Part shown: piece by piece, positions 20,240 to 41,418 of the stretch | How positions within the stretch are numbered: the first letter of the stretch is position 1 | Layout of the letters: each line of letters begins with the position of its first letter | The notes under the pieces: generated by a model | Database searches by the model: none | What the model was told of the DNA's origin: nothing | What the model saw: the letters and a program-made list of their open reading frames with translations, nothing else | Position numbers and translations under genes: made by a program | DNA from: Entoloma clypeatum | Taxonomy: Eukaryota > Basidiomycota > Agaricomycetes > Agaricales > Entolomataceae | Reading direction: 5' to 3' | Length of the DNA stretch: 64,000 nt | Assembly: GCA_963565915.1 (NCBI GenBank) | Contig: OY751493.1 | Span: 4,588,001-4,652,000 of the forward strand

Positions 20240-21350
20240 ATGGACAACCAAGATTTTCAGAACAAAGCCCCCGAGATCCCTAAGCATCACAAACCCCCCA
20301 TTGCACCACCACCTCCACCTCCTCACCGACCAGGCCGAAGAATTGAAATAGCCGCAGATCCCGGCAAATATAATGGATCCCAACCCCTGTTTTTGGGATG
20401 GTGGGCAAAAATGCTCACGTGGATCCGAGTAAATCGAGATTTGTTACATGGGGATGATGAAATCTGTATCGCAGTCTGGTCCTGATTAGATGGACCAATT
20501 GCAGGAACATATGGGGAGACACGACTCACCCAATGCATGGAATCAAATGATTGGCCAATGTATCGAAACTTAGTCTATAAGATCACCACGAGGTTTCACC
20601 CTACCACTGAAGTGGAATGGGCCAGAGCAAAGATTGAGGGGTTCAAACAGAACCAGATGAAGACAGATGACTGGATCACACAGTTTGGAACACTGACAAT
20701 CAAGGGGAAAATTGAGGATCATCATGGGATTTCCTTACTAGAGAGAAATGTCCAGGACTCAATCATACAACAATTGTTTCAGCAAGGAAGACGGCAGAAC
20801 ACCATGCAGGAAACTGTCGAGGAAATCTCAGCCATTGGAAGGGCTGAAGAGAATTATGCCATGAGGCAAGGAATGAGGCAGGGACCTCAAAGACAAGGGA
20901 ACCAATGGCGAAATCACCCCCAGAATCAGCAAGCACCACAGCCACAAGGCCAGAATAATTTCGGAAGGCCCTTTGGGCAACAACAGAATGGGGGGTACCG
21001 TCCCCAGCAAAACGGTCAGCAGCAACAACAACGGGATCCAAACACGATGAACGTCAACAGGAATCAGCAATGAGCCTCTGGTAATTGCTATAACTGTGGA
21101 GGGCAGGGGCAATTTGCCCGAGATTGCAGGCAGCCGCAGCACAGGGTACAAGCGGCAATGATCGAACAGATTGATGAACATGATCGAACAGATTGATGAA
21201 CATGAGGAAGAAGAGATTGTATGACAGATAACGGCAAGACGTCAAGCACGTCAAGCCACAAATGGACAAATGGGTGTGAATAGTGTGCCTGCGCTGAATC
21301 CCAATGGACAAGCTGCAGGGCAGCAGGGTTTTGTGAACGTCAACCAGTAA
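20240..21350 (+). pseudogene. GypB gag, broken
   Basis: The start MDNQDFQNKAPEI is followed by a poly-Pro segment and IAADPGKYNGSQPLF. An in-frame TGA occurs at about 20483. The capsid continues in the same frame (ESNDWPMYRNLVYKITTRFHP, in part), then a long Gln/Asn-rich tail, a second TGA (21071-21073) and a zinc knuckle reading CYNCGGQGQFARDC. The canonical His of CCHC is Gln here (CAA), as it also is in copy B2. A 22-24 bp tandem duplication (gatcgaacagattgatgaac) at about 21158-21205 shifts the frame and is single in B2. Confidence 0.83.
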
Positions 21351-21385
21351 TTCCCCTGCTGGCTCTGACAAATCATTACAAACAA

Positions 21386-22410
21386 TTGCCTATAGACTCT
21401 TATATATATAAAGACACTGTAAAATCATGGTTTCAGAAACTTACAGATGCAGCAGTTACATACAATAAAATACTATTGGACAAACCCAAAAAGGTAAAAG
21501 CTCAAAAAACTAGCACAGATGATTCGGACTTAAATATGCTTGTAAATTATATCATTGGGGAGTCCTTGGAAATGAGGCTTGGTTTGGCCCTTATGGATGA
21601 ATGCTTAATTCCCTGTTACAAAGAATCAGATAATTTAACTAGGCAAACGGACTCTATGGGGGAACCATCTTTTATTCGATCTGCTTCTTTGGAAAAAGAG
21701 CTTATGATGAAAATCATGCTGGAAACATTGCAGGACAAACGCACTTTTGATGTTGATGCATTATTAGACTCAGGGGCGACAGGGATGTTCATTGATCTGG
21801 ACTTCGCCAAAAGGAACAATATTAAATTAAGGGAACTACCTTTCCCCATTCGGGCCTACAACGTTGATGGCATGCTCAACCAAGGAGGGTCAATCATGCA
21901 TGAAGCAGTCATGGCCATGCGGTATAAAGGACATGTGGAAATAGCAGTGTTTGAAGCATGCAACCTAGGAAAAGCTAAAATTATTGTTGGACACACTTGG
22001 CTGAAATGCCATAATCCAGAGATCGATTGGAAAAAAGCGGAAATTAAACTATCAAGATGTCCAGAAGAATGCGGCATGTGTCTAGAAAGAAATGAAGAAG
22101 AAGTGGAGGAAGAGGTAATCCACATGCTCAGGGCAGCTAAGGGAGAACCCTCAGATGAAATACCGGCGGAACAGGCTGTCCCCCAAAAATATCACAAATA
22201 TCTATCAGTCTTTGAAAAGAAAGCATCAGAGAGGTTACCAGTCAGAAAACCATGGGATCATGCTATAGACTTAAAACCAGATTTTGTACCAAAGAAGGCC
22301 AAAGTCTACCCCCTGTCACCAGATGAAAGGAAAGAAGTATCCAAATTTGTGGACAATCAATTACGCAAAGGATATATTCGACCTACCAAGTCACCACAAA
22401 CTTCGCCAGT
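21386..22410 (+). pseudogene. GypB protease and RT N-terminus
   Basis: Open from [15 protein letters not shown]. The protease active site is [15 protein letters not shown] (about 21753-21797), with [12 protein letters not shown] downstream. The RT entry is [12 protein letters not shown] and [25 protein letters not shown]. At 22410 the GypB text stops in mid-RT (SPQTSPV) and a short GypD-like patch follows. The whole segment is almost identical, inverted, to 9503-10527. Confidence 0.85.
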
Positions 22411-22655
22411 ATGGGCTACAACAATGTGCGGATAAAACCTGGAGACGAGTGGAAGGCCGCTTGGTCAGCTGGGATCGTGATTCTTCAGGGCTTTCATCAG
22501 GTTAAAATGGGATATTTGAGTTAACCAATAAACTGTCCAACTTATTATGTTTGGGTGGGAATTACAGTGCCTCACAAAACTGATTCAATGTTTGTTGCTT
22601 TTTGAATACCTTCAAGATAACTCTGCAAAGCATACCAATTGAATTAAACCTTTGG
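22411..22655 (+). other. foreign patch inside GypB RT: GypD RT piece plus DNA-transposon relic
   Basis: 22411-22471 reads [16 protein letters not shown] in a GypD-type spelling (compare 14250, minus strand), not GypB. 22472-22655 is unrelated to retroelement pol. It contains cagtgcctcacaaaactgat followed by about 90 bp also present at 41036-41130. GypB RT resumes at about 22656 (GVFEPTVMFF). The ta|cagtg start resembles Tc1/mariner ends, but no second end is clear here. Confidence 0.65.
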
Positions 22656-25236
22656 TATGATGGAGTCTTTGAACCGACAGTCATGTTTTTTGGATTGAAT
22701 AATTCCCCGAGCACGTTCCAGACCATGATGAACCATATCTTTAGGGACTTGATCAACCAAGAATATGTGGTTATTTATATCGATGATATATTGGTGGCAA
22801 CAGAAGGAGAGGAAGGACACAACGCCATAGTGGAGGAAGTTTTGAAAAGATTACGAGAAAATGATTTATTCTTGAAACCAGAAAAATGTTTCTTTGATAG
22901 AGACGAAATAGAGTTCTTGGGATTAATTATTGGGAAAGGCGGAATTCGGATGGACCCTTCGAAAGTAGACGCCATCAAACAATGGCCGACACCGACTAAG
23001 GTCAAGGAAGTACAATCATTCCTTGGACTCACCAATTTCTATTGGAGATTTGTCAAGGATTTCTCTAATGTGGCCAGACCATTACATAAATTAACAAGGA
23101 AGGACATGGTATGGAAATGGAGTACGGAACAGGAGGAAGTGTTTGACACACTAAAGAAATTATTTACAGAAGCACCCATATTGGTATCTCCCGATCCGGA
23201 TCAGAAGTTAAGAGTAGAATCAGACGCATTGGACTTCACCATGGGAGTGATTCTATCTATGGAATGTGAGGATGAGAAATGGAGGCCATGTGCCTTTCTA
23301 TCTAAAGGGTTAAATGATGTGGAATGAAATTACGACGTACATGATAAAGAAATGCTGGGCATGATTCGAGCGCTGGAAGCATGGAGACACCACCTTGAGG
23401 GAGCCAAACATGAGGTCGAGATCTGGACCGATCATAAAAACCTCGAGTACTTCATGCAGGGATGAAAGCTTGCAGACAAGCACACTGGGCATTGTATCTA
23501 ACACGTTTCAACTTTAAATTAATACACAAGGCTGGCACATCAATGGGAAAGGCAGACGCTCTTTCAAGAAGAGTCTATCATAGAAAGGGGGTGGAAAATG
23601 ACAATGAGGATGTAACATTATTGAAACCAGAATACTTCCATTTACGAGCAATGGATTGGAGACACATACTTATTGATGGGGAAGAAAGTAAATTACTAAA
23701 ACACATCAGGGATGCCAAGGAATTTGACAAGCAGGTGTTAAAAGCAGTGGAAGAACTAAAGAAAACCAATACCAAAATATTACGCGCAGACAAATGGCAT
23801 GAGGAGCAGGGACTCTGGTTACACAGAGGGAAAGTTTATGTTCCAAAGAGTCAGGAACTCAGGGAGGAAATAATTAAATTACACCACGACAATCCAGTCG
23901 CTGGACATCTGGGTCAATGGAAAACTCTGGAATTAGTTACGCATAATTATTGGTGGCCCGGAATCACAAACATGGTCAAAGCTTATGTTGAGGGCTGCAA
24001 CAGATGCCAACAATCAAAAAATGTGCCTCAACCGTTAGCTGGTAAATTAAAAGCAAACACGGAACATGCTGGACCATGGAAACACGTCACTGCAGACTTT
24101 ATTGTAGGACTCCCGGAAGCCCAGGGATATAACGCAGTATTGGTGGTCACTTGTAGATCTACAAAACAAGCACACTTTATCAAAACATGTACAAAGTCTT
24201 GGCTGAGGGGTTAGCTAAGCTATATTGGGACAAAGTCTGGAAACTTCATGGATTACTGGAAACACTGAGATCAGATTGAGGACCGCAATTTGCGGCAACT
24301 TTTATGAAAGAACTAAACAAGATCCTGGGGATTACAACTAAATTATCAACGGCATACCATCCACAAACAGACGGACAAACAGAACAGATCAACCAGGAGT
24401 TGGAACAGTATCTAAGATCATTTATTTCCCATCAACAAACAGATTGGCCTGAATGGATGGCAAGTGCCGAGTTCGCCTACAATAATAAAATACACACAGC
24501 AACTCAGTTTTTGCTGTTCTATTTAAACTATGGATTCAACCCTAGGATGGGCATAGAACCTCGGAGGGCAGAAAAGTCAGAACCGGCAAAAGAATTTGCG
24601 CAGCGAATGAAGAAGATTCATGAGGAGGCAGAAGCGGCGCTAGTAAAAGCACGAGAAGAGATGGAACGGTATGCGAACCAAAACGGGGTGATGCACCAGT
24701 TTACAAAGTTGGCAACAAAGTTTGGTTATCGACTAAAGACCTGAAGTTGAACCGACCCTTAAAGAAACTTGCTGAACAATGGATTGGACCCTATACCATA
24801 ACCAAAGTCATTTTGTCGCACGCTGTGGAACTTAAAATTGCCAAAGTCGTGGAAAATCCACCCGGTTATCAATGTATCACGGGTCTGGTTATTTAAGCAA
24901 CCACTATTTAAATCACAAAAGGTGCAAGCACCAAATCCCATAGTTATCAATGGCAAAGAGGAGTACAATGTCGCTAAAGTTATTGACTCAAGATTGAAGA
25001 GAGGAAAGCTGGAATATTTAGTGCAATGGGAAGGTCTGACTCCAGACCACAACATGTGGGAACCTGAAGATCACCTGGAACATGCCAAGGAAATGGTGGA
25101 GGACTTCTTTAAATTAAACCTGAATGCATCCCGGCGCTTACGCACAAACATCTTTGAAGGATTGAAATTTAAACCATATGAGAACTTCACGGACACCCCG
25201 GACGACATCATATCTCACCTGGAAGTCGAGATCTAG
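22656..25236 (+). pseudogene. GypB RT-RNase H-integrase-chromodomain, several breaks
   Basis: Order: RT palm VMFFGLNNSPSTFQ and intact YIDDILVATE (about 22777); thumb; RNase H (LRVESDALDFTMGVILS, then a TGA at 23325-23327, where an Arg codon is expected, and [16 protein letters not shown]); a TGA at about 23464; integrase finger (HHDNPVAGHLGQWKTLELV, CNRCQQSK); core (ADFIVGLPEAQGY); a frameshift at about 24190; SD(stop)GPQFAATF; AYHPQTDGQTEQINQELEQYL; and a C-terminal chromodomain (KLEYLVQWEGLTPDHNMWEPEDHLE). Stop at 25234-25236. From 23531 on, this region is duplicated in inverted form at 37706-39411. Confidence 0.87.
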
Positions 25237-25247
25237 AAAGGGGATAA

Positions 25248-25545
25248 TGTTATAATCATATTTTCACTTTTTACTTCATCTCATCTTATCTCAATCTTAT
25301 CTTATCTACATCATATCATACATGAGGACATCTTATCAATTGCGCAGCATGACGCTGCCTCAATGCAGCCTCATGGTATTTACATATATAAGTAGGGTAC
25401 TTTCACTTGTATTCGATAGCTTGTTCTCTTGAGATTCCCACTGGGTCTCTTGGCAATACAGCCCCTTCTTCATCTTTCCACGTTTCTCATTCTAAGTTCC
25501 CAAGTTTGGGCTCATGATGTCTTTTGACTTAGCGTCACCTCAACA
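25248..25545 (+). mobile_element. GypB 3' LTR (left arm)
   Basis: TGTTATAATCAT...CACCTCAACA, preceded by a polypurine run (25237-25247). TATA-like acatatataag lies at about 25381-25391. The right flank is GypD gag text (cagtcccatatac). Confidence 0.88.
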
Positions 25546-25848
25546 CAGTCCCATATACAGTTCACAAGAATTAAGGAAAGTCCAACCAGTGGTACATGCT
25601 CTGTTGAAGTCCGATGGAGTTGCAGGTTTTGCCCAACACACACCTGGATTGGCAGGCGCAATCGGAGCAGGTGGAAAGGCTGGAACTGCGGCCTCCGCTG
25701 GAAGGGGAATTGGGTTGGGATTGGGAATGGAAGCAGGTGGAATAGCAGCACGCATAAGTTGTTTGAGTTGAGCGGTAATGTTGGTGAGGGTCTGGCAGTG
25801 TTCCTGGAACTCACATTCGAGCACAGCAAGGTGTTCAGGGTCGTCCAT
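25546..25848 (-). pseudogene. GypD gag N-terminus (copy D3, left arm)
   Basis: The minus-strand ATG at 25848 starts MDDPEHLAVLECEFQEHCQTL, followed by a Pro-rich linker and PATPSDFN, TGWTFLNSCELYMGL. This matches about 100 residues of GypD gag (MDDPNRLEQLEHEF). It is cut at 25546 by the end of the GypB LTR, and the remainder is not found to the left of GypB. Confidence 0.83.
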
Positions 25849-26024
25849 TTCTACATGTGATATGGAGTCACCAGTTACAGAGTGGTAGGCAGAACGGTGG
25901 GAAGGGGCGTCGGATATACTGGAATTGGAGGAGGGCAGACTCGAGTCTGTGTTGTCAACTCCGAAGCGCAGAATGGCTTCAACGGTACAATTTGTACCTG
26001 GTCTGTTTAGAGAGAACTTTCTAC

Positions 26025-26451
26025 TGTAAGGGCGACCTTACGATCCAACAACTCCGAAGTGCTCCGAAGCAACTCCAATGTCGGATGACTTGCAAGGGAA
26101 ATCCAAAGTTGAATAGACTCTACAAAGTACAATATGAGGTGTACCTTGCAAGGGAAATCCAAAGAGAAAGTTCTGAGGATTCCCATGCAAGCTAGGCAGC
26201 TATATAGACGATGAGAATTGGAAATGGGGAGAGAAATGTTGAAATACAACAAAGATTGGGAGTAGGGATGGGAACGGAATATGCAAATCAGAATAGTGCA
26301 TATGGTGACGTTGGAGGTTTGAAGTGAAGAAAGAGAGATGGAAAAGAAAAGAAATGTAAAGTATAGTAATTGATGTACCACAATGGTCAGAGGGTGGGTT
26401 GGAGGTGTCGGACTAAGGAAATCGGATGGAAATCAGATGGTTGCCCTTACA
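26025..26451 (-). mobile_element. GypD 5' LTR (copy D3, left arm)
   Basis: TGTAAGGGCGACC ... GGTTGCCCTTACA, 427 bp, upstream (minus) of the D3 gag. It carries the same internal ttgcaagggaaatccaaag direct repeats, with many substitutions compared with D1, so it is an older subfamily member. Confidence 0.88.
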
Positions 26452-26949
26452 TTATCATGTGCAAAACTAATAGCACTACTGGGATGTCCAAAACATTATG
26501 TACAAGGCTGTTTGCATCAATTTGCTTGGATATATATTGAAGTAAAGTGGAAGAAAGAATGTGGTGACACTGAAATAGCCATATTGTTTCAAGTGACACA
26601 ATAGACCAGGGGGTCAACCAAGAAGAAGAAACATTGGTAGAATGCACTGCAGATGTACAGGTAGGTTTCCAAGCTGGGATGTGGGCATATAATGGCTAGA
26701 CACGCTCTCTGCATGGACATACTGTAGCATTCCTGGGATGGCCATGGGTGACCTGTGCTTGGGGTTTCATGATGTTGAGTAGTTGGCATGTTTACATTGG
26801 GTTGAATATGGGCAGGTGCCACACACTGTGGGCATTGGCTGTTATAACCTTGTGTAATATGCAAGTTTTAATGAGAATAAATTATCAATGTACTTGATTC
26901 ATAAGTGACAGATAAAATGTAGCTTTTATTTTCAATATAATCTCTCTAT
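26452..26949. other. unassigned 0.5-kb segment (left arm)
   Basis: Lies between the D3 LTR and the GypC-like pol tail. A plus-strand frame ends at 26604 (CPKHYVQGCLHQFAWIYIEVK, in part) and a minus-strand frame covers 26589-26864. Neither shows a motif I recognise. The 3' end is AT-rich with a pyrimidine-rich tctctctatctttcag just before the pol tail. Confidence 0.5.
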
Positions 26950-27332
26950 CTTTCAGACTCATCCTTGCCAGGAATGGTACACACTCTTATACCCTCTGAC
27001 TTCTGGACACCATACACGGTGTTCACCCTGTATTCCACATCTCCATGCTGGAGCCATCTGTTCCAGACAACATTCCAAACCGGACAGTAACTCCACCTCC
27101 TCTGATCGACATTGAAGGAGAACTGGAATACAAAATCGCTGAAATCCTCAACACTAAATTGGATCAGCGTCGTTCTTGCAAACTGCTCTACCTAGTCCAT
27201 TGGCTAGGCTATGAAGGAACCTATGAGAAACAGTTCTGGCTACCTGCCACAGAACTTGAACATGTGATGGACTTAGTCATGGACTTCCACTCCATGTATC
27301 CAGAGAAACCGGGCCCCTTATCATGCCTATAG
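26950..27332 (+). pseudogene. GypC-like pol C-terminus (copy C3, left arm)
   Basis: Reading GTHSYTL(stop)LLDTIHGVHPVFHISMLEP is followed by PNRTVTPPPLIDIEGELEYKI and the chromodomain CKLLYLVHWLGYEGTYEKQFWLP, ending PGPLSCL at 27332. It aligns along its length with the last ~125 residues of the intact GypC pol (55232-55600, minus). An in-frame TGA lies in the GPF segment. The rest of gag-pol is absent. Confidence 0.82.
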
Positions 27333-27394
27333 AACCCCGCAAGACATATATATATAAAATAAAAGATTTGTTTTAAAAAAAGAGGGAGGCAGGG

Positions 27395-28223
27395 CTACTG
27401 GGTTTTGGCCAGTGGACCATCATCCTCTGACTCCTCCTCTGGCTCTTCCTCCACCTTTTCCTCCGCCTTCCTCACCTGATTCTTCTCCTCCTCCTCCTTC
27501 TCCACTTGCAGCTCTGCAAGCTTCCCATTGTCCAGTTCTCTGTCCTCTTCCTTATCCTCCTCCTCATTCTCTTCCCCTTTTTCTTCCTCTTCTCCATCCT
27601 CCAACTCTGGAACCGCCGCCTCCAGCAAGAAATTCCAGTAGGCCAGGTGGCCATTCAGAATTTGCAGCTGCCAGAGCAGTGCAAAGCCAACTATTGCTGA
27701 CCACTTCTCCCTCTTCTCAAGAGCCTCTTGGAGCTCCCAGAACTCCTCTACAACAAAGCCCCCGCAACACTCCATTGCTCCACTTGGTCCTGCAATCTCC
27801 ATCATGTCCTCCTCTGTTTTCCCCCATTTCCACTTCGCCCGCATCTCGCCAACCTTCAGACAAACCCGTTTGCTGTCTTTGCACTGCTGGCACGTGGTGC
27901 CCTTCCCCTGTCTAAGGAGATTGTCAGTAAGAAAAAAATGGAAAGGTGGGAACTCACAGCGCCCACTTGCATTCCACCTGTGCCTGCGTACAGGCCTGAC
28001 ACATTTTCCCCCAGACCTCCGACTCCTCCACTCCCCTCTCCGCCCTCTGCTTCCCAGCTTTTTTCATCCTCTTCTTCTCCGCCTCTGCCTCTGCCCTCTC
28101 TTTCGCCTCCACCTCCCTCGCTCCTCTTCGGAGTCTTCCAGGTTGGCGCTGGAACAGGTGGGCTGTGTCCCTGAGTTTTGGGGCATATTGGTGGTAACTG
28201 GAAGAAACCCTTCGACCGCTCAT
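27395..28223 (-). CDS. antisense spliced Cys-cluster accessory gene (left arm)
   Basis: Two exons on the minus strand: 28223-27958 and 27911-27395, with a 46-bp intron (GTGAGT...CTTACTGAC...TTAG). The spliced length is exactly 261 codons (260 residues plus stop). Exon 1: a basic, Glu/Lys/Arg-rich predicted coil ending C-x2-C-x6-C-x-W. Exon 2 opens with the second C-x2-C-x6-C (CQQCKDSKRVC), then a helical part with aromatic residues and a very acidic Glu/Asp-rich tail. The linker between clusters is 10 residues. It lies convergent to, and directly downstream of, a GypC-like pol tail and before its 3' LTR. Same position, intron site and Cys spacing as the gene at 54169-55187. Function unknown; the cluster suggests zinc or DNA binding. 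Confidence 0.7.
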
Positions 28224-28304
28224 CTCTGTTATATAACCAAGACCACATGACCTTGTTTATTTTCTTGCAGTCTTCCATGGGTGTCAGACCTAAGAGAGGA
28301 ATAC

Positions 28305-28588
28305 TGTTATATCCATTTTCTGAAGCTCTGATCCACTCTGATCATCCTCCAATATTCTGGACATCCATTACCTCCACATCTCTGCATGTTGTCATCATGC
28401 ATTTTATATTCATAACTCCATGCCTTTATGCATTTCATATCCATATTCCCGTCACTCTCAGTTCATGCCAGAGATCCTCGCCGTTTTCTTAGCTTTCTCC
28501 TTGTCTACCACTATGTTGTATCTGCCCTATCTCAGTTATAGAATGGGTCTTATGCACTTGTGGGACTAAGGAAGCTCACCCCGTAACA
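28305..28588 (+). mobile_element. GypC-like 3' LTR (left arm)
   Basis: Begins TGTTATATCC after the polypurine aagagaggaatac (the intact GypC has aagagggaaatac) and ends CACCCCGTAACA; 284 bp. The 5' partner is missing. Ends TGTTA/TAACA. Confidence 0.72.
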
Positions 28589-30517
28589 AACTGTTAGAAT
28601 TCTACAGGCAGCCAACAGATGGATTTTAAATCCAAGACAGATGGTGGGTTCCAAATCTGCACCTGTGAAATTGGCAGCAAAAGCCGATCTATTCTACAGA
28701 CAGCCGACAGGTGGATTTTAGATCCAAGACTGATGGTGGATTTCCACATGTTTCTCTACAGTTGAGAAATTCTTGTACTGCTTGTCTTCAAATGACCATC
28801 ACTCTCACAGGTGGCTACTCTAGTTTTACCATCATGAAATCATATATCACCTGATGAAATAATTCCAGATATAAAGTGACTGTTTCTATAATATATAATT
28901 TCTCTAAGATGTAGGACAGTATTGTGTTTCTCATTAGTCTTGAATGTAATCTTGTTTCAATGTTTCTATTCAAATATTCATATATTAGTTTTGGAATTTC
29001 TGTATAATACAGTTGGTTAGTCAATTTATTTTAGCAATGACAACATTTTTTTATAGTTGGCTTCTGAAGCTGCAGGTCTGTATACATTTGGAACTTTGAC
29101 AGTTATCTTTTTGCTCTTCTTATTTTTGCTCATCAATTCCTAAGGACTATCAGTATCAACTGGAAGCAAGTTCATTGGCTGAACATTCTAATAAAGCATT
29201 GTTTGAAAGTAATTCAAGTACCAGCAAAGTTGTAATTTGATTTTGAACAACTTTTATGAAAGGAAATCCAGTATCCATATATGATAATAAATACAGGAAA
29301 TATTCAAAATCAAATCATCAGTTTGACGATACTTGACTTACTCTCATACAATGCTTACAAATGATGTATGATAGCTGTCTGTATTGACTTGAATTCAGAT
29401 CATCTTTCTATAGCTACCTTCAAAACTGCTTATGGTTATATTTGTATAAATACACATAGCTGACATTCTTTTTTCAAAGCAATCTCTTTATCCTCCCACA
29501 TGATCTTGATCCAAACAAAACTGATTATTTCATCAAATGCTTATATAATCATCAAATATTTGTTATTTCACCAAGTCACATGACCAAACAAATGCCACTT
29601 TTGAATCCAGCTCGCAAAATGGATCCTAATAGCATATTACTCCAACACTCTAACTAATATTGTTGAGCATTGCCCATTTAGAAAATATTTTGCTGCAGTG
29701 CAAAAGATGGATGAATAAATAAACAATGGTGCTAAGTTGTGAAATGATAAAGAATGAGTTTTGATGTATTTGTTTTTGATATTTTCTATGTATTTAATCT
29801 CCAAACTTGATATAATAATTTAAACCTCACTTTTCAGTATTTTTATACAATATTATATAAGTATATTGTATTTATATTCAAAAGATACTGTGACAATCTG
29901 ATTTTTATATATTTTCAATATTATTCTACTCAATATTTAATAGAGTTTCTTGGAGTATTTAAAAAATTATTCCAATAATAACAGAACCTTTGTTTATAAT
30001 ATTCTATCAATACTATACTATATTATAGTTAATGTATATCCAAAGTAATATAAAAAAATAATTTCTTTCATTTGAATTTCTTTTCAATATTTTTGATTAA
30101 AGTACACAAATACAACTTGAAAAAATAATAAATATATATTGAAATCTTTCTTTTTAATAAGATATAAATATTCATCTTCTCAATATTTATAATATATTGA
30201 AAACTTATAATCAAAGATACTTGAAATATATCATAAAAATATTGTATGTCAAGTTTATTAAATCTTTTAGATATTTAATCATAAAATATGCATGTCTGCT
30301 TTCTTCATTATTGTTTCATATGATGCTCAAAACTATTGTATAAGAATCATATATAATATCTAAATAGCATATAAAAAGTACAATAAATCTCAATTCAAGT
30401 ACTTTTCAGATATTGATTGTTGTCTAAAGTAGTGTGACATTTGTATTTAATACTTGCAAGATTTTTCTAATACTTTTTGAATAGTTCAGCCCTAAGTATC
30501 CTTGACTGCATCCAGTG
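28589..30517. other. AT-rich non-coding stretch, inner part of the left arm
   Basis: No gene is visible over 1.9 kb. A ~60-bp unit (cagccaacagatggatttta...) occurs twice, at about 28598-28660 and 28692-28752. From about 29750 to 30480 the sequence is extremely AT-rich with runs of tata and aatatt. Confidence 0.7.
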
Positions 30518-30718
30518 GCAGGAAAATCCCAAAACTGAAAGCTTGCACAGCATTACACTTTCATGCAGAGTTGTTCCAAAGATGCAAGTTCTTCAAGGAT
30601 TTATATTGTCTACAGAGTTGGGTTGAGAATGCCAGATAACGCAGAATATAGCTTCACAACTTATAAATTTTGAATTACAGTAAAAGATCAACTTGATGTC
30701 ATTCACAGCAAATGAAAA

Positions 30719-31222
30719 CTATTTAGACCCCTCCATTTTCCTCTTCTTTCCTAGCCTGACCTGCTGACCCTTCTCGGCATTGATGAACAGTGATCTAAGG
30801 GAGTCAATGGCAGGAAATTTATGTGCCCACACCCAGGGCATGATGGACCCTTGAGGAGCCTTGAAGTGGTCGTTATCCATCAAAGGCACCCAATCCAACT
30901 TCCATCCACAGCCTGCACAAACCAAACACATCTTTCTGTGTTCTGTCTGGGGGCAGAGATTGAATGTGTTCTTGTGCCCAGGGCATTGTGGTGTGGGACA
31001 GGCCTGGAATTGGTAGCCAAATATGTGTGCTTTGGTGCGCCTTGCAAACACCTTCCTCTGCACCTTCCACTCACCATTTTCATCCTTCTCTTTGTAAATG
31101 ATGAGGACATTGGTTCCAAGTGAGATGTCCTTGTAGATGTCCTGAATGCCCACAAAGGCAACCCTCTGGGTGAGGGCCGAGACAAACAGCTGAACACTCT
31201 CCACTAAGGTTTCCTCACCCAA
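30719..31222 (-). CDS. Cys-rich hypothetical protein, 3' part
   Basis: A 167-residue open frame. Basic N-half (YKEKDENGEWKVQRKVFARR) is followed by a Cys/His segment: CPTPQCPGH, then NLCPQTEHRKMCLVCAGCGW. The end is basic (RLGKKRKMEGSK). The Cys spacing suggests metal binding, but I do not recognise the family. The open frame probably extends upstream through 31253-31555 by splicing, since a GT..ctaac..AG-like stretch lies at about 31240-31295, but I could not make the frames join cleanly. It is either a spliced gene with an intron I misplace or a decayed one. Confidence 0.45.
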   Translation of the reverse strand: MGEETLVESVQLFVSALTQRVAFVGIQDIYKDISLGTNVLIIYKEKDENGEWKVQRKVFARRTKAHIFGYQFQACPTPQCPGHKNTFNLCPQTEHRKMCLVCAGCGWKLDWVPLMDNDHFKAPQGSIMPWVWAHKFPAIDSLRSLFINAEKGQQVRLGKKRKMEGSK

Positions 31223-31252
31223 AAACCCACAAAAAGGTCAATCTCGTCACTG

Positions 31253-31929
31253 TCAATTGTTAGTGCTAGAAAAAATGGAGGTGGTGGAAGAGTACCTCAT
31301 GATGAGCTTTGAGATGCCCTCAAACTGGTCTCTCTGTCTAATGGCGGACCCGCAGGAAATCAGGATCATGACCTGGATCCCACCCCGGTTCTTCACTAAC
31401 AGAGGGGACCAGATGCGCCCACCCCCAGCGATCGTCTCTAGATGCTGATCTTGATATGCATTCCCAGCAGCCGCCTTCATTGCCCTTAACATCTCCTTTC
31501 CAATGTAAATCCTGAGGAGGTCACCAAGATCTAATGTCTCCTGAGCACTGCCCAAGCCACTTGTTCATTGAAGGAGACCGCTCCAGGAGTTGCTGTGAGT
31601 ATTGATGGCAATGATGCTGTTGGGCAGGAGACCTTTGCCCTGAGTTTGGGCAATGAAGTTTAGGTCCTTCGCCTCATGGGCCAGTCACATTGTCTTTGCC
31701 TGTGTTGTGCTCATTTCAATCTTGTTAGAGACCAAGTTCTGTTGCATTGCTGGATTAGATGTTCCTGGGTGTTGGGAGACAGGAGATGCACCTTCTTGGC
31801 ATCCCAGTATGAGTATGCCATGACCTTCTTGAGGATAGTAAGGGCATGTTTATCAAGGCCAAGAAGTGTCACCCTCTGCAGAAGGAGCGGCCATGCCACT
31901 GGCATTGTTAGAAGCAAAACCATCCCCAT
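31253..31929 (-). pseudogene. upstream segments of the spacer hypothetical gene
   Basis: Two minus-strand open stretches: 31929-31711 (VTLLGLDKHALTILKKVMAYS, in part) and 31555-31253 (GSAQETLDLGDLLRIYIGKEM; RIWSPLLVKNRGGIQVMILIS). Between them the same strand reads on with a stop at about 31669 and another at about 31561. The amino-acid composition looks protein-like, and the order fits one gene with the Cys-rich part downstream. Family not recognised. Confidence 0.4.
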
Positions 31930-32039
31930 AGGAGCTACTTTTCAATAGTATACATAATTATCATACTAAAGATAGTCAGCAAAGGTTTTGCTAATGTATT
32001 TAAGAAGAGCTAATTTCTAATATAAAGACCAGGTAGCAG

Positions 32040-32206
32040 GCAGGGGTGGCATTTGAATTCTTGAGGCTTCTGAATGGCTGTTGGGCGGTGGTGGTGGCCA
32101 GATGGAGTGGAGGTGGGGCATTAAAACAGGGTGGAATGTTTTGTTGACTATTTATCAAATTATCATACAACTTTTGATGATTGTCAGAAGTACTCGGCAG
32201 CCAGTG
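32040..32206 (+). repeat. diverged relic related to the hAT-n1 interior
   Basis: Parallels about 3040-3180: ggctgttgggcgg, gatggagtggaggtggg, taaaa-agg-tggaa-gtttcgttg-like, cagaagt-ctcggcag blocks in the same order. It contains one unit related to the 20-bp minisatellite, not an array. Confidence 0.6.
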
Positions 32207-32350
32207 TGTTGAGGCGACGCTAAGTCCAACAACGTTGCAAGCCCAAACTTAGGAAGTTAGTGAAGAAATGTGGGAAGTGATGAAAGGGCTGTATTAAGCA
32301 GATAGACAGATGCACACTCAATTCACAGATTGAGTATAGAAGGCATAAAT
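32207..32350 (-). mobile_element. GypB-type LTR fragment
   Basis: Starts TGTTGAGGCGACGCTAAGTC and runs parallel to 37397 onwards (gcccaaacttagga, gggctgtatt), fading out at about 32350. 32351-32424 shows nothing recognised before the right arm starts. Confidence 0.65.
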
Positions 32351-32424
32351 AAAGTAAATAAGGGTTGGGGGCAAAGCTAGTGGCTTTCCAACATTGCCAA
32401 TGTTTGGCAGTCATCCGGCCAGCA

Positions 32425-34353
32425 CACTGGATGCAGTCAAGGATACTTAGGGCTGAACTATTCAAAAAGTATTAGAAAAATCTTGCAAGTATTAAATACA
32501 AATGTCACACTACTTTAGACAACAATCAATATCTGAAAAGTACTTGAATTGAGATTTATTGTACTTTTTATATGCTATTTAGATATTATATATGATTCTT
32601 ATACAATAGTTTTGAGCATCATATGAAACAATAATGAAGAAAGCAGACATGCATATTTTATGATTAAATATCTAAAAGATTTAATAAACTTGACATACAA
32701 TATTTTTATGATATATTTCAAGTATCTTTGATTATAAGTTTTCAATATATTATAAATATTGAGAAGATGAATATTTATATCTTATTAAAAAGAAAGATTT
32801 CAATATATATTTATTATTTTTTCAAGTTGTATTTGTGTACTTTAATCAAAAATATTGAAAAGAAATTCAAATGAAAGAAATTATTTTTTTATATTACTTT
32901 GGATATACATTAACTATAATATAGTATAGTATTGATAGAATATTATAAACAAAGGTTCTGTTATTATTGGAATAATTTTTTAAATACTCCAAGAAACTCT
33001 ATTAAATATTGAGTAGAATAATATTGAAAATATATAAAAATCAGATTGTCACAGTATCTTTTGAATATAAATACAATATACTTATATAATATTGTATAAA
33101 AATACTGAAAAGTGAGGTTTAAATTATTATATCAAGTTTGGAGATTAAATACATAGAAAATATCAAAAACAAATACATCAAAACTCATTCTTTATCATTT
33201 CACAACTTAGCACCATTGTTTATTTATTCATCCATCTTTTGCACTGCAGCAAAATATTTTCTAAATGGGCAATGCTCAACAATATTAGTTAGAGTGTTGG
33301 AGTAATATGCTATTAGGATCCATTTTGCGAGCTGGATTCAAAAGTGGCATTTGTTTGGTCATGTGACTTGGTGAAATAACAAATATTTGATGATTATATA
33401 AGCATTTGATGAAATAATCAGTTTTGTTTGGATCAAGATCATGTGGGAGGATAAAGAGATTGCTTTGAAAAAAGAATGTCAGCTATGTGTATTTATACAA
33501 ATATAACCATAAGCAGTTTTGAAGGTAGCTATAGAAAGATGATCTGAATTCAAGTCAATACAGACAGCTATCATACATCATTTGTAAGCATTGTATGAGA
33601 GTAAGTCAAGTATCGTCAAACTGATGATTTGATTTTGAATATTTCCTGTATTTATTATCATATATGGATACTGGATTTCCTTTCATAAAAGTTGTTCAAA
33701 ATCAAATTACAACTTTGCTGGTACTTGAATTACTTTCAAACAATGCTTTATTAGAATGTTCAGCCAATGAACTTGCTTCCAGTTGATACTGATAGTCCTT
33801 AGGAATTGATGAGCAAAAATAAGAAGAGCAAAAAGATAACTGTCAAAGTTCCAAATGTATACAGACCTGCAGCTTCAGAAGCCAACTATAAAAAAATGTT
33901 GTCATTGCTAAAATAAATTGACTAACCAACTGTATTATACAGAAATTCCAAAACTAATATATGAATATTTGAATAGAAACATTGAAACAAGATTACATTC
34001 AAGACTAATGAGAAACACAATACTGTCCTACATCTTAGAGAAATTATATATTATAGAAACAGTCACTTTATATCTGGAATTATTTCATCAGGTGATATAT
34101 GATTTCATGATGGTAAAACTAGAGTAGCCACCTGTGAGAGTGATGGTCATTTGAAGACAAGCAGTACAAGAATTTCTCAACTGTAGAGAAACATGTGGAA
34201 ATCCACCATCAGTCTTGGATCTAAAATCCACCTGTCGGCTGTCTGTAGAATAGATCGGCTTTTGCTGCCAATTTCACAGGTGCAGATTTGGAACCCACCA
34301 TCTGTCTTGGATTTAAAATCCATCTGTTGGCTGCCTGTAGAATTCTAACAGTT
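32425..34353. other. AT-rich non-coding stretch, inner part of the right arm
   Basis: Reverse complement of 28589-30517; no gene seen. 32462-33192 is the most AT-rich part. Confidence 0.7.
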
Positions 34354-34637
34354 TGTTACGGGGTGAGCTTCCTTAGTCCCACAAGTGCATAAGACCCATT
34401 CTATAACTGAGATAGGGCAGATACAACATAGTGGTAGACAAGGAGAAAGCTAAGAAAACGGCGAGGATCTCTGGCATGAACTGAGAGTGACGGGAATATG
34501 GATATGAAATGCATAAAGGCATGGAGTTATGAATATAAAATGCATGATGACAACATGCAGAGATGTGGAGGTAATGGATGTCCAGAATATTGGAGGATGA
34601 TCAGAGTGGATCAGAGCTTCAGAAAATGGATATAACA
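34354..34637 (-). mobile_element. GypC-like 3' LTR (right arm)
   Basis: Mirror of 28305-28588. Confidence 0.72.
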
Positions 34638-34718
34638 GTATTCCTCTCTTAGGTCTGACACCCATGGAAGACTGCAAGAAAATAAACAAGGTCATGTGGT
34701 CTTGGTTATATAACAGAG

Positions 34719-35547
34719 ATGAGCGGTCGAAGGGTTTCTTCCAGTTACCACCAATATGCCCCAAAACTCAGGGACACAGCCCACCTGTTCCAGCGCCAAC
34801 CTGGAAGACTCCGAAGAGGAGCGAGGGAGGTGGAGGCGAAAGAGAGGGCAGAGGCAGAGGCGGAGAAGAAGAGGATGAAAAAAGCTGGGAAGCAGAGGGC
34901 GGAGAGGGGAGTGGAGGAGTCGGAGGTCTGGGGGAAAATGTGTCAGGCCTGTACGCAGGCACAGGTGGAATGCAAGTGGGCGCTGTGAGTTCCCACCTTT
35001 CCATTTTTTTCTTACTGACAATCTCCTTAGACAGGGGAAGGGCACCACGTGCCAGCAGTGCAAAGACAGCAAACGGGTTTGTCTGAAGGTTGGCGAGATG
35101 CGGGCGAAGTGGAAATGGGGGAAAACAGAGGAGGACATGATGGAGATTGCAGGACCAAGTGGAGCAATGGAGTGTTGCGGGGGCTTTGTTGTAGAGGAGT
35201 TCTGGGAGCTCCAAGAGGCTCTTGAGAAGAGGGAGAAGTGGTCAGCAATAGTTGGCTTTGCACTGCTCTGGCAGCTGCAAATTCTGAATGGCCACCTGGC
35301 CTACTGGAATTTCTTGCTGGAGGCGGCGGTTCCAGAGTTGGAGGATGGAGAAGAGGAAGAAAAAGGGGAAGAGAATGAGGAGGAGGATAAGGAAGAGGAC
35401 AGAGAACTGGACAATGGGAAGCTTGCAGAGCTGCAAGTGGAGAAGGAGGAGGAGGAGAAGAATCAGGTGAGGAAGGCGGAGGAAAAGGTGGAGGAAGAGC
35501 CAGAGGAGGAGTCAGAGGATGATGGTCCACTGGCCAAAACCCAGTAG
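34719..35547 (+). CDS. antisense spliced Cys-cluster accessory gene (right arm)
   Basis: Exons 34719-34984 and 35031-35547; intron 34985-35030 with GTGAGT donor, CTTACTGAC branch region and TTAG acceptor. The junction falls inside a Leu codon (CT|A) and keeps the frame through to the stop. Cluster: CQACTQAQVEC-KW, 10-residue linker to the next Cys, CQQCKDSKRVC. Acidic tail at about residues 165-260. It reads opposite to the GypC-like pol tail (35992-35610, minus). Identical in sequence to the left-arm copy as far as I can see. The start codon choice is uncertain because open frame continues around it. Confidence 0.7.
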
Positions 35548-35609
35548 CCCTGCCTCCCTCTTTTTTTAAAACAAATCTTTTATTTTATATATATATGTCT
35601 TGCGGGGTT

Positions 35610-35992
35610 CTATAGGCATGATAAGGGGCCCGGTTTCTCTGGATACATGGAGTGGAAGTCCATGACTAAGTCCATCACATGTTCAAGTTCTGTGGCAGGT
35701 AGCCAGAACTGTTTCTCATAGGTTCCTTCATAGCCTAGCCAATGGACTAGGTAGAGCAGTTTGCAAGAACGACGCTGATCCAATTTAGTGTTGAGGATTT
35801 CAGCGATTTTGTATTCCAGTTCTCCTTCAATGTCGATCAGAGGAGGTGGAGTTACTGTCCGGTTTGGAATGTTGTCTGGAACAGATGGCTCCAGCATGGA
35901 GATGTGGAATACAGGGTGAACACCGTGTATGGTGTCCAGAAGTCAGAGGGTATAAGAGTGTGTACCATTCCTGGCAAGGATGAGTCTGAAAG
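35610..35992 (-). pseudogene. GypC-like pol C-terminus (right arm)
   Basis: Mirror of 26950-27332: chromodomain LLYLVHWLGYEGTYEKQFW and an in-frame stop in the upstream GPF segment. Confidence 0.82.
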
Positions 35993-36490
35993 ATAGAGAG
36001 ATTATATTGAAAATAAAAGCTACATTTTATCTGTCACTTATGAATCAAGTACATTGATAATTTATTCTCATTAAAACTTGCATATTACACAAGGTTATAA
36101 CAGCCAATGCCCACAGTGTGTGGCACCTGCCCATATTCAACCCAATGTAAACATGCCAACTACTCAACATCATGAAACCCCAAGCACAGGTCACCCATGG
36201 CCATCCCAGGAATGCTACAGTATGTCCATGCAGAGAGCGTGTCTAGCCATTATATGCCCACATCCCAGCTTGGAAACCTACCTGTACATCTGCAGTGCAT
36301 TCTACCAATGTTTCTTCTTCTTGGTTGACCCCCTGGTCTATTGTGTCACTTGAAACAATATGGCTATTTCAGTGTCACCACATTCTTTCTTCCACTTTAC
36401 TTCAATATATATCCAAGCAAATTGATGCAAACAGCCTTGTACATAATGTTTTGGACATCCCAGTAGTGCTATTAGTTTTGCACATGATAA
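35993..36490. other. unassigned segment (right arm)
   Basis: Mirror of 26452-26949; nothing recognised. Confidence 0.5.
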
Positions 36491-36917
36491 TGTAAGGGCA
36501 ACCATCTGATTTCCATCCGATTTCCTTAGTCCGACACCTCCAACCCACCCTCTGACCATTGTGGTACATCAATTACTATACTTTACATTTCTTTTCTTTT
36601 CCATCTCTCTTTCTTCACTTCAAACCTCCAACGTCACCATATGCACTATTCTGATTTGCATATTCCGTTCCCATCCCTACTCCCAATCTTTGTTGTATTT
36701 CAACATTTCTCTCCCCATTTCCAATTCTCATCGTCTATATAGCTGCCTAGCTTGCATGGGAATCCTCAGAACTTTCTCTTTGGATTTCCCTTGCAAGGTA
36801 CACCTCATATTGTACTTTGTAGAGTCTATTCAACTTTGGATTTCCCTTGCAAGTCATCCGACATTGGAGTTGCTTCGGAGCACTTCGGAGTTGTTGGATC
36901 GTAAGGTCGCCCTTACA
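36491..36917 (+). mobile_element. GypD 5' LTR (copy D3, right arm)
   Basis: Mirror of 26025-26451, here in plus orientation upstream of the gag start at 37094. Confidence 0.88.
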
Positions 36918-37093
36918 GTAGAAAGTTCTCTCTAAACAGACCAGGTACAAATTGTACCGTTGAAGCCATTCTGCGCTTCGGAGTTGACAACACAGACTCG
37001 AGTCTGCCCTCCTCCAATTCCAGTATATCCGACGCCCCTTCCCACCGTTCTGCCTACCACTCTGTAACTGGTGACTCCATATCACATGTAGAA

Positions 37094-37396
37094 ATGGACG
37101 ACCCTGAACACCTTGCTGTGCTCGAATGTGAGTTCCAGGAACACTGCCAGACCCTCACCAACATTACCGCTCAACTCAAACAACTTATGCGTGCTGCTAT
37201 TCCACCTGCTTCCATTCCCAATCCCAACCCAATTCCCCTTCCAGCGGAGGCCGCAGTTCCAGCCTTTCCACCTGCTCCGATTGCGCCTGCCAATCCAGGT
37301 GTGTGTTGGGCAAAACCTGCAACTCCATCGGACTTCAACAGAGCATGTACCACTGGTTGGACTTTCCTTAATTCTTGTGAACTGTATATGGGACTG
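37094..37396 (+). pseudogene. GypD gag N-terminus (right arm)
   Basis: Mirror of 25546-25848; 101 residues of gag cut by the GypB LTR end at 37397. Confidence 0.83.
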
Positions 37397-37694
37397 TGTT
37401 GAGGTGACGCTAAGTCAAAAGACATCATGAGCCCAAACTTGGGAACTTAGAATGAGAAACGTGGAAAGATGAAGAAGGGGCTGTATTGCCAAGAGACCCA
37501 GTGGGAATCTCAAGAGAACAAGCTATCGAATACAAGTGAAAGTACCCTACTTATATATGTAAATACCATGAGGCTGCATTGAGGCAGCGTCATGCTGCGC
37601 AATTGATAAGATGTCCTCATGTATGATATGATGTAGATAAGATAAGATTGAGATAAGATGAGATGAAGTAAAAAGTGAAAATATGATTATAACA
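37397..37694 (-). mobile_element. GypB 3' LTR (right arm)
   Basis: Mirror of 25248-25545, starting TGTTGAGG on the plus strand and preceded on the minus strand by the polypurine tract at 37695-37705. Confidence 0.88.
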
Positions 37695-37705
37695 TTATCC
37701 CCTTT

Positions 37706-39411
37706 CTAGATCTCGACTTCCAGGTGAGATATGATGTCGTCCGGGGTGTCCGTGAAGTTCTCATATGGTTTAAATTTCAATCCTTCAAAGATGTTTGTGC
37801 GTAAGCGCCGGGATGCATTCAGGTTTAATTTAAAGAAGTCCTCCACCATTTCCTTGGCATGTTCCAGGTGATCTTCAGGTTCCCACATGTTGTGGTCTGG
37901 AGTCAGACCTTCCCATTGCACTAAATATTCCAGCTTTCCTCTCTTCAATCTTGAGTCAATAACTTTAGCGACATTGTACTCCTCTTTGCCATTGATAACT
38001 ATGGGATTTGGTGCTTGCACCTTTTGCGATTTAAATAGTGGTTCCTTAAATAATCGGACCTGTGATACATTGATAACCGGGTGGATTTTCCACGACTTTG
38101 GCAATTTTAAGTTCCACAGCGTGCGACAAAATGACTTTGGTTATGGTATAGGGTCCAATCCATTGTTCAGCAAGTTTCTTTAAGGGTCGGTTCAACTTCA
38201 GGTCTTTAGTCGATAACCAAACTTTGTTGCCAACTTTGTAAACTGGTGCATCACCCCGTTTTGGTTCGCATACCGTTCCATCTCTTCTCGTGCTTTTACT
38301 AGCGCCGCTTCTGCCTCCTCATGAATCTTCTTCATTCGCTGCGCAAATTCTTTTGCCGGTTCTGACTTTTCTGCCCTCCGAGGTTCTATGCCCATCCTAG
38401 GGTTGAATCCATAGTTTAAATAGAACAGCAAAAACTGAGTTGCTGTGTGTATTTTATTATTGTAGGCGAACTCGGCACTTGCCATCCATTCAGGCCAATC
38501 TGTTTGTTGATGGGAAATAAATGATCTTAGATACTGTTCCAACTCCTGGTTGATCTGTTCTGTTTGTCCGTCTGTTTGTGGATGGTATGCCGTTGATAAT
38601 TTAGTTGTAATCCCCAGGATCTTGTTTAGTTCTTTCATAAAAGTTGCCGCAAATTGCGGTCCTCAATCTGATCTCAGTGTTTCCAGTAATCCATGAAGTT
38701 TCCAGACTTTGTCCCAATATAGCTTAGCTAACCCCTCAGCCAAGACTTTGTACATGTTTTGATAAAGTGTGCTTGTTTTGTAGATCTACAAGTGACCACC
38801 AATACTGCGTTATATCCCTGGGCTTCCGGGAGTCCTACAATAAAGTCTGCAGTGACGTGTTTCCATGGTCCAGCATGTTCCGTGTTTGCTTTTAATTTAC
38901 CAGCTAACGGTTGAGGCACATTTTTTGATTGTTGGCATCTGTTGCAGCCCTCAACATAAGCTTTGACCATGTTTGTGATTCCGGGCCACCAATAATTATG
39001 CGTAACTAATTCCAGAGTTTTCCATTGACCCAGATGTCCAGCGACTGGATTGTCGTGGTGTAATTTAATTATTTCCTCCCTGAGTTCCTGACTCTTTGGA
39101 ACATAAACTTTCCCTCTGTGTAACCAGAGTCCCTGCTCCTCATGCCATTTGTCTGCGCGTAATATTTTGGTATTGGTTTTCTTTAGTTCTTCCACTGCTT
39201 TTAACACCTGCTCGTCAAATTCCTTGGCATCCCTGATGTGTTTTAGTAATTTACTTTCTTCTCCATCAATAAGTATGTGTCTCCAATCCATTGCTCATAA
39301 ATGGAAGTATTCTGGTTTCAATAATGTTATATCCTCATTGTCATTTTCCACCCCCTTTCTATGATAGACTCTTCTTGAAAGAGTGTCTGCCTTTCCCATT
39401 GATGTGCCAGC
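37706..39411 (-). pseudogene. GypB integrase-chromodomain (right arm, truncated)
   Basis: Minus-strand copy of 23531-25236 with a few changes: EQVLKAV for KQVLKAV, VSQVRLFKEPLF for VSRVWLFKQPLF. It retains the same frameshift and stop as the left arm (near 38700), so the duplication is later than those lesions. The N-terminal end is fused at 39411 to GypD integrase. Confidence 0.87.
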
Positions 39412-41029
39412 GCGCGACACCAGTTCCAAGGTTTTCCACCATCCAGGATGTCCGGCCACCGGAGTGTCATGGTGTTGTATGAGGATCCGATGACGCAGTT
39501 GGGGATTGTTAGGAACACAGATACATTCCCTGAAGTAGAGCAAACCTTCCGCTTGCCTCCACTCCGCACTATGGACGGACCCCGCTCCGACAGTCAGAAG
39601 GGATTTGACAACCTCCGCCACACTATCCTCCAGTAACCCCTCTCGGATTCCCTGTCAGACCTGGCAGAGGACGTCGTGTTCTTCCCCTTGAACAGTTACC
39701 CCATGCATTGCTCGCACTGCAAACAATTCTGGTCGAAGAAGGATGATGTTTTCATTGTCCCACGATCCGTCTCTGTGGTCCACTCGTTGGGACAAAGCAT
39801 CGGACTTGCCCATTGACTTGCCAGGTTGATGGTGCATTTTGAAATCGAAACGAGCGAGGTATAAGGACCATCTAGCCTGTCATTGATTTAGTTTTTGAGC
39901 TGTCATGAAATACTCAAGATTTTTGTGGTCCATCCAAATCTCCACTGTCTTCTCCGCTTCTTCAAGGAAGTGTCTCCACTCCTCCAATGCGCGGACCACT
40001 GCCAACATCTCCTTGTCGTAGATCTCATAGTTGTGTTCCACCGGACTCAGGCTTTTGGAATAGAATGCGACAGGGTGCCACTTACCGTCCTCTGTTGGTT
40101 GGGACAGTACTGCTCCGGTTGCAAAGTCTGAGCTATCCGCTTCTATCCGCCACTTCTTTCCATGATCAGCTAAGACCAGGATTGGAGCAGATGTAATCCT
40201 CCGCTTCAACTCCGCAAATGCAGACACTTCTCCCTCCCTCCAAGACCAGAGGTGCCCTTTCTTCATGAGCTCGAAAAGAGGGCGCGTGATGTCCAAAATT
40301 CCTTCAATAAAACGGCGATAGAAGTTAGTGAATCCCAGAAAGGACTGTACTTCTCGGAAGTTTGTCGGAGCGGGCCACTCCGCAACCCCCGCTACCTTCA
40401 CCGGATCCATCTCTACATGTCCTTGTTCAATAATAAGGCCTAGGTATTCAATGCGCGTTTGTTCAAACTCGCATTTCTCTGGTTTTAGATAGAGTTTGTG
40501 TTCGCGAAGTCGTTCCAGTACGATCCGTGTGACTCTCCGATGCTCCGCAAGGGTCTCCGTGAAGATGAGTATATTGTCGAGGTAAACACAGACTACACCT
40601 TCAGTGATAAGGTCCTGAAAGATCTCGTTCATCATAGTCTGGAATGTGGATGGACTATTAGTGAGGCCGAAGAACATCACCAATGGTTCATAGAGTCCGT
40701 GATTGGTCCGAAAAGCAGCCTTCCACTTGTCTCCGGGTTTTATCCGCACATTGTTGTAGCCCCAGTGGATGGCGAGCTTGGTGAAGTATTGAGCGCACGT
40801 TGAAGTTTATTGATCAGTTGGGATATGAGCAGAAGCGGATACTTGTTTTTGATAGTTTTGGAATTGAGTGACTGGTAGTCTTGTACAAGACAAAGGGAGC
40901 CATCCTTCTTCTTGATGTAGAATACCGGAGATGCCATCAGAGACTTGGAAGGGCGGATCCGACCAGTTGCAAGGTTTTCCTCCAAAAATGCGTCGAGTTC
41001 CTTCTGTTTGTTCAGAGTAAGCGGATATA
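39412..41029 (-). pseudogene. GypD RT-RNase H-integrase N-part (copy D2)
   Basis: Minus-strand order: RT (ENLATGRIRPSKS, YIKKKDGSLCLVQDY, a frame break at about 40795, RIKPGDKWKAAF), the segment STFQTMMNEIFQDLI that D1 lacks, and VYLDNILIFTE (about 40577). The Asp-to-Asn change is shared with D1. RNase H (RIEADSSDFATGAVLSQ, YEIYDKEMLAVVRALEEWRHF) runs to a stop at 39880. After further stops comes the integrase finger up to HHDTPVAGHPGWWKTLELVS, where the palindrome join cuts it. The uninterrupted cagaaaggactg site for solo LTR-E copy 1 is at about 40336. Confidence 0.87.
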
Positions 41030-41418
41030 CAGCGCCTCACAAAACTGATTCAATGTTTGTTGCTTTTTGAATACCTTCAAGATAACTCTGCAAAGAATAC
41101 CAATTGAATTAAACCTTTGGTATATAATTGAAAGCCCTACTTCAGGGCTTTCAGAATATAAAGGAATCATATGATTTAGATCAGAATCCATGGAGATATG
41201 ATTAAATTAAATCAGCAACTCATTGAATCAGTTTTGTGAGTACCTATGGCAATTATCAGAATCAAATGCTTCACTGGTTGTATGGTAACCAGTTGTCATG
41301 ACTTACTGATGGAACTTGAATAGAACCCTGATGGTTTGTCAAGGAAAGTTGTATAAGAAGAATCCAACCTCAACAGCCTCCATAATTAATCATGCGCCCT
41401 ATCTCCTCTTCCTACTTT
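41030..41418. mobile_element. inserted DNA-transposon-like relic in GypD
   Basis: Replaces about 140 bp of GypD pol. The part 41036-41241 has perfect 20-bp inverted ends, ctcacaaaactgattcaatg and cattgaatcagttttgtgag. The left side reads tacagcgc|ctcac, similar to ta|cagtgcctcac at 22568, which is reminiscent of Tc1/mariner ends, but no clean TA duplication is seen. Inside is a small hairpin, gaaagccct-acttc-agggctttc. 41242-41418 has no recognised content. Confidence 0.6.

Follow-up and report, generated by a model that had tools for sequence, protein, structure and literature searches.

Introduction

Palindromes on sex chromosomes are homogenized by gene conversion from arm to arm, as described in the cited portions of reports on the human Y palindrome P6 (PMC3723533) and on the primate X (PMC8981503); conversion tracts in P6 average ~2 kb, with a maximum of >9 kb. 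In the fungus Candida tropicalis, centromeres comprise inverted repeats of 2–5 kb around a core of 2–5 kb, and the arms are more alike within than between centromeres (PMC4741521, in the part cited). Here, we analyze a near-perfect palindrome in Entoloma clypeatum, lying in a 64,000-nucleotide stretch (the window; contig C12, OY751493.1, positions 4588001–4652000) of an assembly that totals 60.08 Mb across 20 contigs (GCA_963565915.1). Window coordinates are given as W or without a contig name; C1–C12 denote contigs, A and B the left and right arms, and copy C a third, direct copy. From the sequence, we favor, with roughly even confidence, an older palindrome of nested transposon relics whose arms were homogenized by arm-to-arm gene conversion.

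Like the sex-chromosome palindromes, this locus has inverted arms >99.8% alike around a spacer, with a likeness that may be younger than the arms; tracts as long as those reported for P6 mean that one or a few conversion events would suffice here. It differs from them in that its kilobase arms are transposon relics, probably not on a sex chromosome, with no GC bias at seven sites in one assembly. The C. tropicalis centromere repeats resemble it as kilobase inverted repeats around a core in a fungus, but they share sequence across all seven centromeres, whereas the Entoloma palindromes share families only partly. Among the titles listed by our literature searches, none reported such palindromes in transposon-rich fungal regions besides these centromere repeats; we make no claim of absence.

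Two further kinds of rearrangement, as the cited excerpts describe them, bear comparison. Inverted duplications formed by template switching, namely origin-dependent inverted-repeat amplification (ODIRA; PMC10766183) and duplication–inverted triplication–duplication (DUP-TRP/INV-DUP; PMC4352052), share with this locus the succession of direct, inverted and direct segment copies (A, B and copy C), with inverted repeats at one junction and end joining at the other. A and copy C differ by 0.69%, whereas A and B hardly differ, so the copies do not stem from one event; a one-step DUP-TRP/INV-DUP, although its arrangement is present, is ruled out by these different ages (0.69% against ten clustered differences between A and B). 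ODIRA, which a preliminary description of the locus had listed as a candidate, predicts that the outer end of B should form another inverted junction; the pol gene GypD is found there, and an inverted triplication of this kind is ruled out. In maize, transposition of Ac/Ds ends on sister chromatids can yield flanking inverted duplications (alternative transposition; PMC3744419), with transposon ends at the rearrangement junctions, as here, and target duplications there; the Entoloma transposon, unlike Ac/Ds, belongs to a CACTA-like family and is one-ended, with only a 3-bp GCA as a possible target duplication.

Geometry and content of the palindrome

The arms occupy W23531–30517 (A, plus strand) and W32425–39411 (B, minus strand, an inverted copy). 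Each is 6,987 bp long, with a constant position sum of 62942 and no indel, and they flank a spacer of 1,907 bp (W30518–32424); alignment of the arms bears out the geometry given in the preliminary description. Homology ends sharply at the inner and outer limits alike. Ten mismatches separate A from B, in two clusters at left-arm positions 23558, 23612, 23645, 23680 and 23729 and positions 24881, 24886, 24888, 24898 and 24915, all confined to the multi-copy GypB part of the arms. The earlier estimate of about eight outer substitutions was thus too low, while their clustering in GypB stands, and the inner ~5.2 kb said to lack differences can be extended to 5,602 bp. The 6,753 bp outside both clusters are identical, bounding divergence at ~0.045%; given this length and identity, a chance origin of the likeness is out of the question.

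From its outer end inward, A comprises the 3' part of the pol gene GypB (to ~25545), Ty3 pieces (to ~28452), and, innermost, a one-ended CACTA-like transposon. The segment 26960–28452 matches a family found as a long terminal repeat (LTR) element on C12 at 2.65 Mb. There is no assembly gap between W −9999 and 83867, and a gap of 200 N follows at W83868–84067. Genome searches scored the best 40 candidates; family counts are therefore lower bounds, and absences hold for the places scored.

Inner ends and spacer

On both sides of the spacer, the arms end at the terminus of the CACTA-like transposon (CACTGGATGCA), and the palindrome is thus bounded inwardly by transposon ends, a feature that the preliminary description had missed. 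The part common to other family members spans 29363–30517 in A (TE-L, plus strand), with the terminus TGCATCCAGTG exactly at 30517, and its mirror copy spans 32425–33579 in B (TE-R, minus strand). This terminus recurs at other places, with a different flank each time. Two two-ended copies (C10:162526–164088 and C12:1279318–1279607) carry the termini CACTGGATGCA...TGCATCCAGTG, of the CAC...GTG type, and both have 3-bp target duplications (TGG on C10, TTA on C12). Termini and duplications together fit the EnSpm/CACTA transposons of fungi, for which CAC...GTG termini are a criterion in the cited portion of PMC12730594. Being one-ended, the copy in the arm cannot display a target duplication of its own; a search of the arm for a second terminus found none convincing, and 29363–30517 contains no long open reading frame (ORF).

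The border between spacer and right arm is directly visible at a second place in the genome. At C9:3483800–3486438, spacer sequence equivalent to 30873–32424 runs into 1.1 kb of right-arm sequence, and the junction (C9:3484888/3484889) corresponds base for base to 32424/32425. The C9 copy differs from the window at 17 of 1,549 spacer sites and 12 of 1,089 transposon sites (~1.1% each); the transposon part has three short gaps besides. Four other members of the transposon family show 73–92 differences per ~1,150 sites from A or copy C, far more than the C9 copy, which is thus placed as a sister of the arms' transposon. An inverted transposon close to TE-L would therefore have bounded the spacer before the C9 copy split off, and by this comparison the spacer/right-arm junction appears old. 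Together with the older look of the outermost 199 bp of B (below), it tells against the single young event of the preliminary description.

The spacer is not itself palindromic. It starts and finishes with GCA, a 3-bp match with a chance of ~1 in 64, and holds a 172-aa stop-to-stop ORF on the minus strand (30719–31237). A relative in pieces, 88–90% alike, lies at C2:33752–35076, ~33 kb from the contig start; the minus-strand frames of these pieces are open, and the spacer is therefore probably a fragment of a host gene. Its protein matched no Pfam family above the cut-off, and in a separate comparison none of 17 candidates reached E ≤ 0.001. To find a place where the spacer sequence runs uninterrupted, its two ends were joined through one GCA and searched; no place matched across the join among the best 40 of 69 candidates.

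Copy C and the mosaic right arm

Copy C (W72635–83867) matches W20096–31367 in direct orientation, ~52 kb away; it comprises the left arm and the start of the spacer, and ends inside the spacer exactly at the 200-N gap. It differs from A by 77 substitutions in ~11.2 kb (0.69%). CpG transitions account for 33 of the 77, which points to methylated cytosines in the relics. Copy C includes GypB to the left of 23531, a position that the GypB frame crosses uninterrupted (stop-to-stop ORF 23438–24214), as the preliminary description held. The context of the left arm is therefore ancestral and the right arm was added, in keeping with the polarity proposed there. The identity of the arms is younger than the nested elements, again as proposed, and younger also than this segmental copy at 0.69%.

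Set against A and copy C, the right arm is a mosaic. At the five outermost sites, all transitions within the outer 199 bp of B (39213–39411, minus strand), copy C agrees with A and B stands apart. At 23729, B has the base found in 10 of 11 other GypB copies, while A and copy C share another; the A of B at 23612 occurs in none of the 11, and its bases at the remaining three sites occur in 5/11, 4/11 and 6/11. From 24200 inward, A and B share derived states that copy C lacks, and the switch point in B lies between 23729 and 24200. The rate between A and copy C predicts 1.4 differences in the outer 199 bp, where five are found (p ~0.013), and ~48 in the whole arm, where ten are found; under a uniform spread, all five outer differences would fall within 199 of 6,952 bp with p ~2e-8. 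The outer end of B seems to belong to the lineage of A and copy C and to have departed before those two parted, a polarity set mainly by one site. Judged by the few sites concerned, the right arm appears older at either end than is the identity in between. Conversion of the outer tract of B from a sampled GypB copy was considered and rejected: A, B and copy C have 23576-T and 23660-A in common, and none of the six closest other GypB copies has them.

The second cluster is a patch in A (24881–24915, plus strand) with five differences in 35 bp, at all of which B and copy C agree. In this patch, A is closer to GypB copies on C1 and C6 (97% and 96%) than to B and copy C (95%), which points to either a polishing error or a short ectopic conversion of A.

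Outer join to GypD

At its outer end (39411/39412, minus strand), the right arm passes bluntly and in frame from GypB to GypD, and the in-frame fusion reported earlier is confirmed by an ORF at 39295–39654 (minus strand) that spans the join. The 'gc' overlap described at this point was not recovered: GypB homology ends at 39411 and GypD homology at 39412, with zero shared bases. Among the best 40 of 2,407 candidates, the matches of 37 other GypD places begin at 39412 or 39414, and they never extend across the join. The bluntness of the join suggests end joining after synthesis.

The GypD flank (39412–42378, minus strand) is interrupted by a Ty3 element whose LTRs lie at 42379–42780 and 48419–48819. 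It was considered as a direct duplicate of GypD at 12488, since both have the same orientation, and this source was dropped because other GypD copies match equally well (94–96% against ~95%). Within GypD, at ~41023–41415, lies a ~390-bp repeat, 96 bp of which are present in GypB at 22563–22658 and in copy C; a 393-bp copy, 98% alike, borders an inverted pair on C5 (P2, below).

Inverted pairs elsewhere in the genome

Near-identical inverted pairs also occur outside the window. Four inverted match pairs of similar score, <10 kb apart, were picked from the family match lists, a non-random choice that left wider pairs out. Three of them (P2, P3 and P4, the window palindrome being P1) are far more alike than their families; the fourth, an inverted GypB pair at C1:4829298 and 4836843, is not, at 86.9% over 804 columns. 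P2 (C5:4908001–4910916/4914680–4917596) has arms of 2.9 kb, 99.9% alike, with two substitutions and one gap in 2,917 columns and a spacer of 3,763 bp. For its outer 1,500 bp, no other scored copy exceeds 95% identity, and its outer neighbor is the 390-bp repeat, not GypD. P4 (C6:3875500–3876500/3877448–3878448) is 98.8% alike, with 11 mismatches in 1,001 sites, the next best scored copy reaching 95%.

P3 (C12:2654681–2660484/2663768–2669570) has arms of 5.8 kb, 99.86% alike, with seven substitutions and one gap, around a spacer of 3,283 bp. Its inner ends lie at an LTR terminus, and the next best scored copy of a 1-kb piece is 97% alike. Within its left element, the two LTRs show 25 differences in 719 columns, against 7 in 5,804 for the inverted arms (Fisher p ~1e-18, arms against 25/715 for the same LTR and the right copy); the likeness of the arms is therefore much younger than the element. 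No 5-bp target duplication was found at the outer flanks of the left element. AGTTC before the 5' LTR of the left element nearly matches GGTTC after the 3' LTR of the right element (C12:2653194–2663768), the pattern expected from a crossover between inverted copies. A nested insertion is present at P3.

Across P1–P3, the outer 30% of the arms holds 18 of 19 substitutions. When these are grouped into six clustered events, five lie there (p ~0.01, with the cut chosen post hoc), and a test on mean position gives p 0.008.

Origin of the palindrome and of its arm identity

We propose that an inverted copy of the left arm arose some time ago, likeliest through repeat-primed synthesis that was ended by end joining to GypD. 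Later, one arm would have been overwritten with the sequence of the other, through gene conversion or through repair synthesis that used the latter as template, with the inverted arms paired around the 1.9-kb spacer. Inward, conversion would have been limited by the end of homology, at the CACTA-like termini that bound the spacer; outward, it would have left out the outermost 0.2 to 0.67 kb of B. Either process, with the left arm as template, would account for an old inner junction, an old-looking outer end and a new middle in the same arm. Recent gene conversion of the inner part is the best supported of the candidates in the preliminary description, whose reading of one young inverted duplication is partly supported. 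That conversion was the cause, in which direction it ran, and that it may recur, we infer.

Several points weigh against this explanation. Conversion is read from one assembly only; the outer tract of B could be a product of error-prone synthesis, and the mismatch clusters could be polishing errors. TE-R on C9 could come from a recent local hop and not from an older palindrome. The C1 pair, at 86.9%, indicates that inverted closeness alone does not homogenize, and the outward gradient comprises only six clustered events, with p 0.11 in an outer-half test; both P2 differences may be part of P2's join. Moreover, GC bias is lacking: of the seven changes shared by A and B that unanimous outgroups polarize, five are to A or T and two to G or C. 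The sample is small, and GC bias is no strict requirement for conversion; its lack argues against a continuous process of the sex-chromosome type.

A single recent inverted duplication, which we consider possible but rather doubtful, would begin with a break or stalled fork on the right, where an inverted TE-R used TE-L as template; synthesis would have run outward to 23531, the new end would have been joined bluntly to GypD, and the outer differences would reflect error-prone synthesis. The 6,753 bp without a difference (bound ~0.045%) speak for it, as do the blunt join, which fits end joining, and the inverted transposon beside the spacer already known from C9; in yeast, according to the cited part of PMC6103520, inverted repeats close to a break steer its repair toward break-induced replication. 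Yet the outer tract of B lacks the state of A and copy C at 23729 while B has later changes of A further inward, so a single copying event is insufficient without a second process, and the packing of five outer differences into 199 of 6,952 bp (p ~2e-8) also tells against it. An assembly error, in which the assembler turned back along the left arm at the inverted TE-R or took up a chimeric molecule, and short-read polishing added the differences, seems unlikely. It would fit the stop of copy C exactly at the 200-N gap and the restriction of differences to multi-copy GypB, where mis-mapped reads could change bases, the A patch being nearer to other copies. Against it, the inner junctions recur elsewhere (TE-L/spacer in copy C, spacer/TE-R on C9), and the sequence is gap-free from W −9999 to 83867. 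A fold-back read would need a palindromic spacer, which this is not; 23612-A of B is absent from all 11 other copies; and similar pairs with real differences exist (11 in 1,001 sites in P4, seven in P3).

Two explanations invoke transposition. That the locus is a transposon whose terminal inverted repeats measure 7 kb, with the spacer for a core, is barely credible, even though long inverted repeats do surround a near-unique core and part of the core plus inner arm recurs on C9. The CACTA-like termini point inward, and no second arm–core–arm arrangement was found among the places scored; outer ends inside two different pol genes (GypB and GypD), unlike flanks and the lack of a target duplication rule out such a mobile element at this locus, as the preliminary description had concluded. 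Very unlikely, in our estimate, is a birth by transposition, in which the copies of one CACTA-like end carried by two sister chromatids inserted jointly at a single GCA site, making mirror arms in one step, and conversion afterwards kept the arms alike in transposon-filled regions. The GCA pair at the spacer ends, in the arrangement CAGTG/GCA ... spacer ... GCA/CACTG, leaves room for it, and it would explain the exact terminus on both sides, the 3-bp length of the spacer's duplication and the early likeness of TE-L and TE-R when the C9 copy split off. It requires a circular or rejoined spacer target, the empty-site search found none among the scored places, and the GCA match would arise about once in 64 by chance.

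If homogenization by conversion is correct, near-identical palindromes kept by recombination would not be confined to sex chromosomes and centromeres but would occur in transposon-filled regions too, several of them in a single genome, and arm identity would be a poor clock for such repeats. The pairs found here offer loci at which conversion, inversion of the spacer and inverted-repeat breakage can be studied.

Other features of the window

Scans of the 64-kb window for tRNA genes and Rfam families gave no hits. A search for gag brought up 444 relatives. A small palindrome at 1921–2392, with 151-bp arms 99% alike and 170 bp apart, lies beside a 20-bp tandem array (2533–3055). An inverted GypB pair at 9501–10789 and 21102–22412, 10 kb apart, is 98% alike with four mismatches. 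A Ty3 element at 53505–60783 has identical 534-bp LTRs (53505–54038 and 60250–60783) and long ORFs of 1101 and 449 aa, which point to a recent insertion.

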